A stretch of 64,000 nucleotides of DNA, from NCBI GenBank assembly GCA_029268515.1, contig JAQWNP010000002.1:1-64000 (forward strand), given 5' to 3'. The position numbers and the translations under genes are program-made. The notes under the pieces were generated by a model. The model did not search any database. It saw only the letters and a list, made by a program, of their open reading frames with translations, and was not told where the DNA came from. Shown piece by piece: positions 28,449 to 33,007 of this stretch (within the stretch, counting starts at the first letter, position 1; every line of letters starts with the position of its first letter). Origin of the DNA: Phycisphaerales bacterium (GTDB lineage: Bacteria; Planctomycetota; Phycisphaerae; Phycisphaerales; SM1A02).

Positions 28449-29549
28449 TCATTCAAGATCGAGGCAGGCCAGTACCTGCCCAGCAATGAACTCAACCTCT
28501 TTGCATGCATCCCGCCACCTCGGCATGGACCGAGTGATTGCATAAAAACGTCGAGCTTCCATGGCCATAAGCAACCGCCCAACTTCATCAACACATCCAT
28601 CAGGCGGCATCCAAAGCAGGCGATCAGCAGAATCTTTCGGCCAGTTGATGCCCGCAAGCGCAGCAGTCAGTTTTGGCTGCACACCATGCCTCTCTGCAAT
28701 GTGGGCCAACGCAGCATGCGTTGCGGCGTTGTCTTGATCATCTCTGATCTGCATGGCTGCATCAAGTAATTGCCGCCGAAGCGGCTGGCCGGCAGCGTCC
28801 CATACGCTGATTGTGGCACATGCTGTAAACACCGCCCGCTCCGCCGCGACTTTCTGCAGCCCGACCATCACAGCAAAGGCTCCGGGATGCTGCCACGGAT
28901 CTCCTGCCGCACACAACCAGTGTGACTGCGACTCCAATCGAGCAAGCGAACGATTAAGCCGCTCATCGAGTACTTCGACAGCCCCTCGAAGTTGTATCGT
29001 GCTCTCCCATGCAGGAATCGCTAACGAACTTGCGGCAATATGCACATGCGCAATGACTGCATCCCTACCCGCACGAGCATCCTCTTCAGCAAACATCGTT
29101 CGCATGGCGGATTCGATACTGCGGCGAATGTGTGGCCCGACCCCCGCAGCCAGAATAGCCTCCTGTGACTCCTTGGCTGCCCGCTGCGCTGTGTTTGGGC
29201 CGTGAATCCGCGCAGCTGATGAGAGCGTCTCCCTCGCCGACCAGTTTGGACCGAATGGCCCCGAGGCCATCGCCACCATCAACGCCTCACGCTCACCTAC
29301 ATCGACTGCCTCCATCCACGAATCCATGTAAGGGAGTGCTCGTGACCAAAGAGCGATTTGTGCATGCACAAAGTGGTTGTGCTGTTCGGTGGCTCGGAGC
29401 AATGTTTCAGCGAGCACTGTACGGAGCAATGCCTTTGCTGACGCCGCTGGATGTTGCATGAGGTCTCGCCGACCATACTTTGCCGCTTGAGCATTCAGCT
29501 GGCGATGCAGAGAAGCTGCCCATACAGGTTCGATTTCACGAAATATCAT
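28449..29549 (-). CDS. Hypothetical alpha-helical protein
   Basis: I do not recognise this 366-aa protein. It has no signal peptide or membrane segment and is predicted by eye to be mostly alpha-helical, rich in Ala, Arg, His and Trp, with amphipathic stretches of repeat-like length (for example VIAHVHIAASSLAIPAW, AAERAVFTACATISVWD, DQDNAATHAALAHIAERHG). No catalytic motif is visible. The ATG at 29549 overlaps the end of truA by 14 bp, so it is translationally linked to truA; a longer frame reaching 29594 is less likely. The context (truA, adenylate-kinase-like gene) gives no clear role. Confidence 0.75.
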   Translation of the reverse strand: MIFREIEPVWAASLHRQLNAQAAKYGRRDLMQHPAASAKALLRTVLAETLLRATEQHNHFVHAQIALWSRALPYMDSWMEAVDVGEREALMVAMASGPFGPNWSARETLSSAARIHGPNTAQRAAKESQEAILAAGVGPHIRRSIESAMRTMFAEEDARAGRDAVIAHVHIAASSLAIPAWESTIQLRGAVEVLDERLNRSLARLESQSHWLCAAGDPWQHPGAFAVMVGLQKVAAERAVFTACATISVWDAAGQPLRRQLLDAAMQIRDDQDNAATHAALAHIAERHGVQPKLTAALAGINWPKDSADRLLWMPPDGCVDEVGRLLMAMEARRFYAITRSMPRWRDACKEVEFIAGQVLACLDLE

Positions 29550-30363
29550 CACGTCGCTTCTGCAATTGACGCTGCCGCCCGCTTCCAGGCTCACCGTAGC
29601 GAATCCACTGCAGCGAAAGACCCTCGGGGGGCATCGTCACACCCGCCGCTGATCGTTCACCCGCTACGAGTGCTGTTTGAATCGAGTCTAAGGTTCTTCT
29701 GCCCGCGCCGGCCTCAACCAATGTGCCAGCAATGATCCGAACCATATTCCACAGAAATCCTCCACCCGATACGGTAATACTCGCCACTTGCGAAGCAGGC
29801 AATTCGACATCACATGTGTGAACCGTGCGCACCGTTGATTCACGGCCGTGATTGAGTCGAGTAAAGCTTGAAAAGTCATGCTGCCCAATAAGCAAGGCAG
29901 CGGCTGCATTCATCGCGTCGACATCGAGGTCCCATGGCACCCATGCAAGATGGTGCCGATCGAAGAGCGGTCGTTGGTGTGCCTCCCGCCGACCGAATGC
30001 CACGCGGTACTGATAAGACTTGTCCTGCACATCACCGATGACATTGAATGCACTAGAGACTTCTTCTGCATCAAGCACACGAATATCATCTGGCAATCGA
30101 GACGAAACTGCTGGCGCAAACCGATCTACATCCATCTCGCTCTTCGTATCAAATGCTGCGACTTGACCGATGGCATGCACGCCAGAATCCGTTCGAGACG
30201 CGCCGTGCACTGAGACCTCTTCGCGAACAACATGGCGAACGGCCTGCTCCAACACTCCCTGCGCAGTACGAAGCGGTGGTTCATCTGGCGGATGCTGCTT
30301 CTGCCAACCTCGAAAGTTGGTCCCGTCATAGGCGACCGTCAACTTGATGCGGCGCTGGGCCAC
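29536..30363 (-). CDS. truA: tRNA pseudouridine(38-40) synthase TruA
   Basis: Converts U38-U40 in the anticodon stem of tRNAs to pseudouridine. The catalytic Asp is D59 in GASRTDSGVHA. Other family blocks are IKLTVAYDGTNFRGWQ at the start, FDRHHLAWVPWD, GQHDFSSFT and FLWNMVRIIAGTL. The GTG at 30363 is chosen because it begins the conserved domain 2 bp after the upstream stop; the open frame continues further upstream inside the neighbouring gene. 275 aa, normal length. Part of a tightly packed leftward run. Confidence 0.95.
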   Translation of the reverse strand: MAQRRIKLTVAYDGTNFRGWQKQHPPDEPPLRTAQGVLEQAVRHVVREEVSVHGASRTDSGVHAIGQVAAFDTKSEMDVDRFAPAVSSRLPDDIRVLDAEEVSSAFNVIGDVQDKSYQYRVAFGRREAHQRPLFDRHHLAWVPWDLDVDAMNAAAALLIGQHDFSSFTRLNHGRESTVRTVHTCDVELPASQVASITVSGGGFLWNMVRIIAGTLVEAGAGRRTLDSIQTALVAGERSAAGVTMPPEGLSLQWIRYGEPGSGRQRQLQKRRDDIS

Positions 30364-30365
30364 GC

Positions 30366-31502
30366 TCAGTGTCCGAAGAGGTTTCCAGCCGCGAACATTC
30401 GCTCGGACTCGAAATACCCAAGGGCTGCGTCCACATCGGGAAAGATCTTCGTCGCCGTCTCGGTAATGAACGGTGATGGTGGCTTGGCTGGCTTCCACAC
30501 AACGTACACCTCTTTGGTGTGCTCCCACGCGTGCTGCAACTCTCGTTCAACGCCGCTGGAGAGGCCCGGAATGCCGCCCGGCAATTCAGGGACAAGCGAA
30601 ACGATCATGTCGCTCTGATCAATCAACTTAAAGTCCCGCATATAAATCTGCCCGTCGACATCGCCCGCAATATCGAGCACTTCGCGAACACTGACACGAA
30701 GGTCTGCACCCTTACGCCCACCGAAGGCATGAGGCGCAACATCAATCCAATCCTGTCCCTTTTTTGCTGCTTCGATAGCGCGATCCAAAAGAAGCTTCTC
30801 ATCAACATCCGCTGGATCGAACGTAATGAAGTGCTCGGCCAATGCGTCGCGAAAGCGCCCGATTTCATCGAGCACATCAGGCATGTCCATAACGTGGCTC
30901 ATGGGAAATGACGGATACACACGTTTCATGTCGGGTCGGGTAACCAATCGAAGACATGTTTCCACAGTGTCCTGCTGGCGACCGCGGCTGAGGATATAGA
31001 ACTGATTCGCACATCCCATTGCACTTGCGAGCAACTCGGTTGCGAGAATCTCCTCCTCACGCCATACCATGCAATCCTTAAGTGTTGCATCGATGTCGTG
31101 TTCGGCATGCAAGCGATGATGCACGACTTCAATATTGTCGAGCAAACAAATGAACATGTCTGCCTTGAGTTTTTCCATCTGGTCAAAGTCGAAGGCGCTA
31201 AACAAACCGTGCCGCCACCTGAATGTTGCGTGCGTGTTGACCATGATGTCGGGGAAGTTGCTCGGCGGCGAAGTCTCAGCGATGATGTCCTTGAACGCCG
31301 CGCGGCGAAGGGACGCCAATCGGCTTAGTGGTAAGTCGAGAATACGACCGGAACGAACGTCTGGCCCTTCCTGATACATCAGGTCGCCGACGTTATACAA
31401 CTCAATGCGTGTGCCCTGGCTTCCGCCGAGATCGCGCACAGCGTTCAGATATGGTTTCTTGTCGATGCCGATTTGACCGGTGATGACTGCTCGCATGGGC
31501 AT
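30366..31502 (-). CDS. Archaeal-type adenylate-kinase-like domain fused to deoxyribosyltransferase-like domain
   Basis: 378-aa protein without an assigned function. Residues about 3-200 resemble archaeal adenylate kinase AdkA: RAVITGQIGIDKKPYL opens like its P-loop, but GQIGIDKK (9-16) has Lys where Ser/Thr binds Mg-phosphate, and the NVGDLM, VNTHATF and REEEILATELLASAMG blocks match the AdkA order. Residues about 250-370 resemble nucleoside 2-deoxyribosyltransferases: DIDQSDMIVSLVPE-type strand then SSGVERELQHAWEH, followed by VYVVWKP. Together they suggest a nucleotide-binding or nucleotide-processing protein, possibly not a kinase. An ATG at 31496 is an alternative start with TATCCT 6 nt upstream. 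Upstream of truA by 2 bp. Confidence 0.65.
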   Translation of the reverse strand: MPMRAVITGQIGIDKKPYLNAVRDLGGSQGTRIELYNVGDLMYQEGPDVRSGRILDLPLSRLASLRRAAFKDIIAETSPPSNFPDIMVNTHATFRWRHGLFSAFDFDQMEKLKADMFICLLDNIEVVHHRLHAEHDIDATLKDCMVWREEEILATELLASAMGCANQFYILSRGRQQDTVETCLRLVTRPDMKRVYPSFPMSHVMDMPDVLDEIGRFRDALAEHFITFDPADVDEKLLLDRAIEAAKKGQDWIDVAPHAFGGRKGADLRVSVREVLDIAGDVDGQIYMRDFKLIDQSDMIVSLVPELPGGIPGLSSGVERELQHAWEHTKEVYVVWKPAKPPSPFITETATKIFPDVDAALGYFESERMFAAGNLFGH

Positions 31503-31556: not shown

Positions 31557-32228
31557 TCAGTGGCTGCTCGAATTTGGTGGGTGGCGATACCGCCGCAGCC
31601 ATGATGCCCTCGCCCGCGGCGGCACCATACCCCCCTTGCGGGACTTTGCGAAGACAATGACGACTGCCGACACCACCACAGCAAGCACGAGCCCAGCGAT
31701 GATCCACTGAATCGTCCCAAAGGCACTTCGTGAAGCCAATCCATAGCCCACCAAGATGCCTGCACCCAGTTGCATTGGTGCGGTCACAAGCACGCACAGC
31801 CACGTTGCAATCGCAAATCTCCAGAACCGAAGATGCATCAACCCTGCAACCGTGATGGCCGGTGTCCGACTGCCTGGTATGAATCTTGCGGCGACAATGA
31901 ACCACACACCACGCAGATCAATTTGATGTTTGGCCTGAAGCAGTCGCTTGGGATGCAACATTCGCCGGATAAATCTTCGATGCAGCAGTCGCGTACCAAA
32001 CAGGCTGCACCATGTGAACCACAACACATCGGCAGTCCCCACGCCGACAATAGCGGCAATGAGCGTTGGCACCCATACTTCGGTCCCCAACATCTGCTCA
32101 CCAATCAAAACCCCCGCAGGAATAATGACGATGTCTTCACCGATGGGAATCCCGATGGAACTTGCAAGCAGCAAACCCAGCACAACCCATGGAAGGTAGT
32201 CGGCGTACTGGGAGATGAATTCGGTCAT
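31557..32228 (-). CDS. DedA family membrane protein (copy 1)
   Basis: 223-aa inner-membrane protein of the DedA/VTT family. The ATG at 32228 overlaps the stop of the second DedA gene (ATGA). Family features are the re-entrant GIPIGEDIVIIPAGVLIG near 25-42, a charged helix (RRFIRRMLHPKRLLQAK) and ARFIPGSRTPAITVAGLMHL with the conserved Arg residues and GxxR/P pattern. DedA proteins such as UptA move undecaprenyl phosphate back across the membrane; other DedA members serve other lipids or proton homeostasis. The two tandem copies may have split roles. Confidence 0.9.
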   Translation of the reverse strand: MTEFISQYADYLPWVVLGLLLASSIGIPIGEDIVIIPAGVLIGEQMLGTEVWVPTLIAAIVGVGTADVLWFTWCSLFGTRLLHRRFIRRMLHPKRLLQAKHQIDLRGVWFIVAARFIPGSRTPAITVAGLMHLRFWRFAIATWLCVLVTAPMQLGAGILVGYGLASRSAFGTIQWIIAGLVLAVVVSAVVIVFAKSRKGGMVPPRARASWLRRYRHPPNSSSH

Positions 32229-33007
32229 GCGTGCGCTCTTGTCCGTTCTAATGGGGGCTTGCAGGCCTCGCGGAGCCAACGCATCTGAGCCCTCGGGCGA
32301 TGCTGATGGTGTTTCTTTTTTCGTTGACGAGCCCACCAAATTATCATCAGCAACGCCAAGATACCCACTCCAATGAGCACCGCGTCCACGATGTGCCGAT
32401 CATGGGTCGACTCAGTAATGCCCTTGGCAATCAACCAGCCCACGCCAAGTTGCCAGGCCACACTCTTAGCCGCTCCAATGCACTCACCTAGCATGAACTT
32501 CCGGATTGGCATATGCGCGAGTCCGGCGGCAGTGATAACTGGTGTTCGAGCGGCAGGCAGAATACGTCCCATGATGACGACGCCTGCCCCCCACTTATCA
32601 AGCAGGTGTTTGATCTCGAGCAGCCGACGGGGGTGAAACATCCGTCTAAAGAAGCGAATCGCAAGTAGGCGATGGGCAAACCGACGGACAAGCAGCATCC
32701 AGATGAGGTCTGCAAGCACCACTCCAGCCCATGCCGCTGCAATTGTCGGCCAGAGCGGTAGAACGCCCCGCTCGATGAGGAACCCAGCAGGAATAATGAG
32801 GATCTCTTCGCTGATAGGAATACCAACACCAGCAAGCATGATCACGCCAAAGAGCAACCACGGTCCTTCATCGACGAGCGAGTCCTCAACCTTCTGCTCC
32901 ACCTTGCCTTTCAGAGAGCGGGGATCGTCGACCAGATTGCCCTCGCTGGAAGCGGCAACCGCAGAACCCAGCGTCACCAGTAGCAATATCAATACCCATC
33001 GCCTCAT
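32225..33007 (-). CDS. DedA family membrane protein (copy 2), with N-terminal extension
   Basis: 260-aa DedA/VTT protein. Unlike its neighbour it begins with a signal-like hydrophobic segment (RRWVLILLLVTLGSAVAAS) and a hydrophilic stretch of about 30 residues before the first core helix. Core motifs are GVGIPISEEILIIPAGFLI, the basic FRRMFHPRRLLEIK helix and GRILPAARTPVITAAGL. The C-terminal tail is Lys/His-rich (RKKKHHQHR). It lies 38 bp downstream of the sugar-nucleotide enzyme gene and overlaps the other DedA gene by 4 bp. Confidence 0.9.
   Translation of the reverse strand: MRRWVLILLLVTLGSAVAASSEGNLVDDPRSLKGKVEQKVEDSLVDEGPWLLFGVIMLAGVGIPISEEILIIPAGFLIERGVLPLWPTIAAAWAGVVLADLIWMLLVRRFAHRLLAIRFFRRMFHPRRLLEIKHLLDKWGAGVVIMGRILPAARTPVITAAGLAHMPIRKFMLGECIGAAKSVAWQLGVGWLIAKGITESTHDRHIVDAVLIGVGILALLMIIWWARQRKKKHHQHRPRAQMRWLREACKPPLERTRAHA

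Follow-up and report, generated by a model that had tools for sequence, protein, structure and literature searches.

In the window, by which we mean the whole 64,000-nucleotide stretch of a Phycisphaerales contig that was analysed, one gene encodes a protein in which a domain similar to the archaeal adenylate kinase AdkA is joined to a domain similar to the nucleoside 2'-deoxyribosyltransferases (NDT) and to DNPH1 (RCL), the 2'-deoxynucleoside 5'-phosphate N-hydrolase. The locus raises the question of which reaction such a fusion may catalyze, and what an adenylate kinase fold with a degenerate P-loop may contribute to it. The gene and its immediate neighbors are:

30366–31502, minus strand: the whole gene, a pseudo-AdkA domain followed by an NDT/DNPH1-like domain (378 residues, ATG start; from the list of open reading frames)
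29536–30363, minus strand: truA, the next gene downstream, read from an in-frame GTG located 2 bases past the stop of the target gene (PseudoU_synth_1, E 1.3e-39)
31557–32339, minus strand: a DedA/VTT membrane protein, upstream (VTT_dom, E 1.3e-13)
32225–33007, minus strand: a second DedA/VTT membrane protein, upstream (VTT_dom, E 5.8e-15)

The target gene could alternatively start at M3 (31496), where many of its homologues begin, and the GTG start of truA is plausible, with an open frame of 275 residues. All of these genes lie on the minus strand, so that the co-directionality with truA and both DedA genes stated in the preliminary description holds.

The complete protein was modelled with AlphaFold2 from a 32-row alignment (mean pLDDT 86.8, pTM 0.86). 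When residues 1–190 of this predicted structure were compared with known structures by VIA-align, they matched archaeal AdkA 3h86 with a Z score of 21.0 (rmsd 2.5 over 182 residues) and 6ln3 with a Z score of 20.7 and 23% identity. The same relationship was found at the sequence level, since a search of PDB sequences retrieved the Aeropyrum pernix adenylate kinase 6ln3 with an E-value of 1.8e-6, or 4.1e-10 when a family profile was used. The Pfam family AAA_17 was matched above its cut-off over residues 30–134 (E 1.5e-7), and the NCBIfam model of archaeal adenylate kinase, NF003122, gave only a weak match below its curated threshold (E 8.2e-4, 18.9 bits for a cut-off of 155). PADLOC and PHROGs returned zero matches to the protein up to E 1. 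For residue conservation, 183 matching loci were collected, 41 exact duplicates were dropped, and the 142 remaining loci, none of them short, were aligned with the window protein; these 143 rows contain the window protein twice (its own row and L001) and are weighted towards its own family. Median identity to the window protein was 73% for the N-terminal and 79% for the C-terminal domain. The features of the N-terminal half are:

30933–31502, minus strand: N-terminal domain, residues 1–190, predicted archaeal adenylate kinase fold (VIA-align on the AlphaFold model)
31455–31478, minus strand: degenerate Walker A motif GQIGIDKK, residues 9–16 (from the alignment; 6ln3 and 1nks have GVGKT and GVGKS)
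31227–31238, minus strand: NTHA, residues 89–92, the counterpart of DTHA in archaeal AdkA (aligned to the DTHA of 6ln3 and 1nks)
31050–31061, minus strand: REEE, residues 148–151, invariant (143/143 at all four positions)

Adenylate kinases use both the Ser/Thr of Walker A and the DTHA aspartate for Mg2+. In the present family, Gly12 is invariant (143/143) and the Walker lysine, Lys15, is retained in 141 of the 143 rows. The next position is Lys in the window protein and in 117/143 rows, the others having R, A, Q, T, G, L, or P; Thr occurs there in two rows and Ser in none. A replacement of the Walker A Ser/Thr by Lys, together with doubt about classical kinase catalysis, had been noted in the preliminary description: the degeneracy of the P-loop proved to be family-wide, but Lys16 is common rather than essential. 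The idea that Lys16 is a conserved functional stand-in for Mg2+ was accordingly weakened by the range of residues found at this position. The Asp of DTHA is likewise absent, with Asn in 142 rows and Ser in one at position 89. Judged from these alignments, the N-terminal half is a former archaeal-type adenylate kinase lacking both of the proposed Mg2+-binding positions. Residues expected on the NMP side (R61, R66, R67, H91, R95, and W96) are nevertheless invariant or nearly so over the 143 rows, and thus the N-terminal half appears to be under strong selection and is likely a nucleotide-binding pseudokinase. We also considered that the protein might replace a missing adenylate kinase, and rejected this since an ordinary ADK (PF00406) was found in 45 of 46 genomes of relatives, including that of the window (G000). 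The blocks GQIGIDKK, NVGDLM, NTHAT, REEE, and SSGVERELQHA listed in the preliminary description are all present, in the order of archaeal AdkA where this applies.

The C-terminal domain (residues 190–378) was also modelled alone (pLDDT 87.1). Its best VIA match was 7o62, a Desulfotalea deoxyribosyltransferase (Z 15.2, rmsd 2.4 over 132 residues), and human DNPH1 9i57 (Z 13.9, 19% identity over 133 residues) and MilB 4jem (Z 12.1) were also recovered. Residues 190–369 of the full-length model gave a consistent result against 7o62 (VIA-align Z 13.5, rmsd 2.0 over 128 residues). Among the best 50 VIA matches, all were NDT, DNPH1/RCL, or MilB structures with the exception of 7m5h, which is titled a conserved protein of E. 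faecalis; PMC12884076 counts a structure from E. faecalis V583 among the deoxyribosyltransferases. Foldseek gave weaker support than VIA, its eight matches at E ≤ 0.001 being six NDT/DNPH1 structures and two sirtuins. Both folds proposed in the preliminary description were thus supported by structure prediction, an AdkA-like one for the first 190 residues and an NDT-like one for the remainder.

Sequence comparisons of the C-terminal domain were less informative. Neither sequence searches nor a profile search of PDB sequences reached a solved NDT or DNPH1, and the window protein was unmatched by Pfam PF05014 (Nuc_deoxyrib_tr) at E 1, short of the curated cut-off; six of 32 family members gave weak matches (best E 0.087). 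A profile comparison with L163, the sole PF05014 protein above the cut-off in 61 class genomes, gave no useful alignment. When this L163 protein was itself searched against phages, zero matches were returned. The features of the C-terminal half are:

30396–30932, minus strand: C-terminal domain, residues 191–369, predicted NDT/DNPH1/MilB fold (modelled alone, VIA)
30915–30917, minus strand: Tyr196, proposed equivalent of human DNPH1 Tyr24 (143/143 rows)
30633–30635, minus strand: Asp290, proposed acid, equivalent of DNPH1 Asp80 (143/143 rows)
30528–30560, minus strand: SSGVERELQHA, residues 315–325, with Ser315 (proposed phosphate contact) and Glu321 (proposed nucleophile) (from the alignment)

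In the motif, S315, S316, G317, V318, E319, R320, E321, L322, H324, and A325 are each present in all 143 rows. According to the available sections of PMC10603095, the catalytic residues of human DNPH1 are Tyr24, Asp80, and Glu104, and Ser98 contacts the phosphate; the accessible text of PMC3834327 gives Ser87 and Glu93 for the rat enzyme, and PMC10483697 is a further source on this active site. In DNPH1-type enzymes, a second phosphate-binding Ser is contributed by the other subunit of a dimer. The spacing of Ser315 and Glu321 is the same as that of human S98/E104 and rat Ser87/Glu93. Tyr196 is residue 7 of the C-terminal model, and the VIA alignment pairs residue 1 of this model with DNPH1 residue 18; Asp290 is located, in the predicted structure, in the helix ahead of the strand running to the Glu motif. 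On the basis of motif, spacing, and the range of folds matched, we propose that Tyr196, Asp290, and Glu321 correspond to the DNPH1 triad and Ser315 to its phosphate-binding serine. DNPH1 and the window protein nevertheless share no significant sequence match, and the distance from Asp to Ser is 25 residues in the latter and 18 in the former.

The target gene is a core gene of the sampled class. Within the family and order, 60 of 61 genomes have it, that of the window included, and homologues in the other genomes are 66–86% identical; identity reaches 90% in the 80 loci listed out of 355 found. In the class as a whole, 170 of 198 sampled genomes carry it (139 of the 155 of good quality), with one match in 162 of these 170 and two in eight, the two matches in G010 being halves of a single copy. 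This G010 copy (L207, G010:C1:1671400-1672900) is intact except for an in-frame insertion of about 35 residues in a variable loop near residue 263. Several copies had been flagged as broken by one internal stop, and this was not borne out in the seven that were read (L200–L206), which had the terminal stop alone. Several families of the class, f8, f108, and f110 among them, had no match in any listed genome.

In the sample of the phylum, 39 of 392 genomes had a match at E below 1e-100, 38 of them in the class; 45 genomes were matched in all, and the six weak matches (E 0.006 to 0.95) were not counted as holders, nor was one weak match (G149, E 1.2e-4) of the 18 found in a separate genome scan. 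The one holder outside the class is G274, a genome fragmented into 1020 contigs; in the tree its copy falls among order-level families, and it may be a contaminant. The titles of the 80 listed loci of 355 name Phycisphaerae, Phycisphaerales, or other planctomycetes, the exceptions being a small number of uncultured bacteria and a single bin called Chitinophaga. Judging by these titles, the sampled class is probably Phycisphaerae. Phyla beyond this one were scanned with exact peptides of the target protein, and a wider spread is thus possible. A mobile or phage origin was considered and rejected, since searches of plasmids, phages, and viral contigs gave zero matches to the target. In a tree of 45 rows (from which L143, L157, L158, and L159 are absent because identical sequences are present under other identifiers), most families formed coherent groups, which fits mainly vertical inheritance. 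The copies G550:C73 (L189) and G274:C466 (L112, L151) group with families f5/f6 and not with their own family or class, by horizontal transfer or contamination.

The neighborhood of the gene was analyzed with tblastn and homology-supported open reading frames, the truA query being a trimmed protein free of overlap with the target; calling the longest open reading frames recovered the target itself in just 51 of 80 loci, probably because antisense frames win in GC-rich DNA. Near relatives had truA in 63 of 80 loci, 53 of them on the same strand and mostly less than 60 bases from the target, and DedA, PIG-L, and dut genes in 36, 54, and 50 loci, respectively, many of these 80 loci being cut short. 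In 20 loci taken mainly from other families, truA was present in two, one of which is a second copy in the window's own bin.

Another neighbor recurred in several families. An open reading frame of about 230 residues, DeoC, was found in seven loci of five families in a set of 46 loci with 22 family labels, and all seven deoC frames tested scored above the deoC equivalog cut-off. One other cluster was equally widespread, an ABC-transporter ATPase (assigned by eye) in eight loci with five labels, about 2 to 7 kb away. We then compared 150 listed places of the target (148 of its 170 genomes) with 150 listed places of deoC (129 of its 152 genomes), 108 genomes being common to both. In 11 of these 108 genomes, belonging to families f7, f9, f111, and f115, deoC is the direct downstream neighbor in the same orientation, the model ends being no more than 239 bases apart; two further genomes have it downstream on the same strand at a distance of up to 2.7 kb, and two (G040 and G535) have it on the opposite strand, at distances of 3.4 and 5.5 kb. 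Of five junctions read, using the first in-frame start, two have 4-base overlaps (GTGA in L154, ATGA in L187), and in the others the two genes are separated by 5 (L183), 16 (L155), or about 200 (L153) bases. The adjacency occurs in separate parts of the tree and requires at least five changes. Direct adjacency is missing in 97 of the 108 genomes, those of the window's family included, and in the window's own lineage the neighbors are truA and the DedA genes, not deoC.

Co-occurrence of the two genes supports a link between them. A deoC gene is present in 152 of the 198 class genomes; 143 genomes have both genes, 27 of the 170 target holders have no deoC match, nine have deoC alone, and 19 have neither (Fisher p 5e-8, uncorrected for kinship). 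Deoxyribose 1-phosphate is usually converted to deoxyribose 5-phosphate by DeoB. This phosphopentomutase was detected in one of the 198 class genomes and in six of 14 control genomes. Pyrimidine-nucleoside phosphorylase (Y_phosphoryl) was found above the cut-off in none of the 198 genomes, with two weaker matches, and in six of 14 controls; PNP-family matches occurred in 164 of 198 genomes, zero of them above the cut-off. Despite the scarcity of DeoB, deoxyribose 5-phosphate may also come from other sugar-phosphate mutases or deoxyribose kinases.

Taken together, these data lead us to favor, with a probability of roughly 0.57, a (deoxy)nucleoside 5'-monophosphate N-hydrolase carrying a pseudo-adenylate-kinase domain and feeding deoxyribose 5-phosphate to DeoC. 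We infer the hydrolysis itself, the preference for deoxy substrates, the specificity for a base, and what the dead kinase does; it is the linkage to deoC that suggests cleavage of dNMPs to base and deoxyribose 5-phosphate. In the proposed mechanism, the C-terminal domain would bind the nucleotide through its 5'-phosphate (Ser315), Glu321 would attack C1' while being oriented by Tyr196, and Asp290 would protonate the leaving base. The resulting covalent glycosyl-Glu321 intermediate would then be resolved by water, freeing (deoxy)ribose 5-phosphate. The preferred substrate would be a 2'-deoxynucleotide and the product hence deoxyribose 5-phosphate, which DeoC would split into glyceraldehyde 3-phosphate and acetaldehyde. 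A DNPH1-type enzyme would provide a direct supply of this sugar phosphate. The N-terminal pseudokinase most likely binds a nucleotide, either to present or gate the substrate or to sense the nucleotide pool. A broader and distinctly more tentative idea is that the class runs deoxynucleotide breakdown largely without DeoA and DeoB: the fused enzyme would strip the base from dNMPs, deoxyribose 5-phosphate would pass to DeoC, and the dead adenylate kinase would read the adenylate or dNMP pool and set the rate. In that case, the protein would be an N-glycosidase controlled by a pseudo-nucleotide-kinase.

Among known systems, DNPH1 resembles the target in the C-terminal fold, in the Tyr/Asp/Glu residues, and in having a Ser six positions ahead of the Glu. 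The crystal construct of DNPH1 described in PMC10603095 spans residues 19–162, with no kinase-like domain within it. NDTs such as 7o62 and that of L. leichmannii share the fold of the C-terminal domain; they act on nucleosides and transfer the sugar to a base, as stated in the part of PMC12884076 that was available. The target falls short of PF05014. The same source, within its accessible portion, describes DmtZ and DmtZ-DutZ (Gordonia phage Ghobes, Arthrobacter phage Wayne), an NDT-family dNMP hydrolase that is fused in one phage to a nucleotide enzyme. DmtZ, which was assayed through DeoC, hydrolyses dAMP and can also pass the sugar phosphate on to base Z. Its partner is a phage-borne Dut-like dNTP hydrolase (PMC12884076, same portion), whereas that of the target is a pseudo-adenylate kinase; DmtZ is a precedent both for such fusions and for a competing transferase reading. 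Archaeal AdkA (3h86, 6ln3, and 1nks) shares the fold of residues 1–190 (Z 17.7–21.0) and the order of the blocks, and differs in having the Walker A Ser/Thr and the DTHA Asp and in lacking the NDT-like half. In the HGPRT/adenylate kinase of Zobellia galactanivorans, as in the target, an adenylate kinase domain is joined to an enzyme that works on the bond between base and ribose; PMC7326950 describes that fusion as a characterised bifunctional enzyme, and its partner is a phosphoribosyltransferase, whereas the partner in the target is NDT-like. A literature search gave no paper on an AdkA–NDT fusion among the matches listed, which is weak evidence of absence given that most subscription journals lie outside its coverage.

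Other functions were weighed against the monophosphate N-hydrolase. The target could be a ribonucleotide N-glycosidase like MilB or AMP nucleosidase, releasing base and ribose 5-phosphate from rNMPs; the presence of MilB among the structural matches and an AdkA-like N-terminal half, which would suit AMP, speak for this, but the adjacency and co-occurrence with deoC point to deoxyribose 5-phosphate, and we regard it as unlikely. A base-exchange enzyme moving deoxyribose 5-phosphate or deoxyribose between bases, as phage DmtZ or NDT do, would agree with the annotation of the top structural match, 7o62, as a deoxyribosyltransferase and with the dual hydrolysis and transfer described for DmtZ in the accessible part of PMC12884076. 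The deoC linkage, however, suits hydrolysis, and a Ser at Glu minus 6 is a feature of the nucleotide hydrolase DNPH1, which makes exchange rather improbable.

The preliminary description had offered a nucleotide sensor, a base-exchange enzyme, or a defence-type nucleotide processor. Nucleotide processing remains the best fit, in the form of the monophosphate N-hydrolase. A sensor, an NADase, or a defence effector, in which the NDT-like half would act as the receptor or the effector, could be envisaged since DrHyd, TIR, and SLOG domains are often found in conflict systems (PMC9503650, in the sections available), but appears very improbable here: the proposed catalytic residues are invariant, and the defence part of the earlier suggestion is unsupported because this is a core gene, mostly in single copy, with no PADLOC, plasmid, phage, or viral match. 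The least probable of the readings considered is a bifunctional enzyme in which the kinase half is active with unusual metal handling and couples NMP phosphorylation to base removal. Conservation of P-loop Gly12 and Lys15 and of the NMP-side residues would be expected in such a case, but the loss of Ser/Thr after the Walker lysine and of the DTHA Asp, and the ordinary ADK in nearly all relatives examined, argue against it.

If the monophosphate N-hydrolase reading is true, the protein would exemplify how the fold of a nucleotide kinase can be reused, minus its metal site, as the partner of a nucleotide N-hydrolase. The reading would also explain how DeoC is kept while DeoB is missing in most sampled genomes. 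A core protein that is highly conserved in a class represented here mostly by metagenome-assembled genomes would thereby gain a function that can be tested.

Some further observations concern the surroundings of the gene and its relatives. Between truA and the PIG-L gene, a 381-residue open reading frame (window 28449–29594, minus strand) matched no family above the cut-off (DUF7213, E 0.017) and had a tblastn match in just five of 80 neighborhood loci. The bin of the window has a second copy of the gene (L140, G000:C1:250000-269900), 76% identical to the target, and its gene order, dut, PIG-L, truA, target, DedA, UDPGP, and a PhoU-like gene (labelled by eye), matches that of the window. Its local GC content is 49.9%, compared with 56.2% in the window, and contamination of the bin is 4.18%; contig C1 thus probably comes from a second, related organism. 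Finally, a genome of family f103 contains, on a different contig from the target gene, a 520-residue deoC frame (L198:643-2205) whose N-terminal part resembles, by eye, ribose-5-phosphate isomerase B, and which is thus an apparent RpiB–DeoC fusion.
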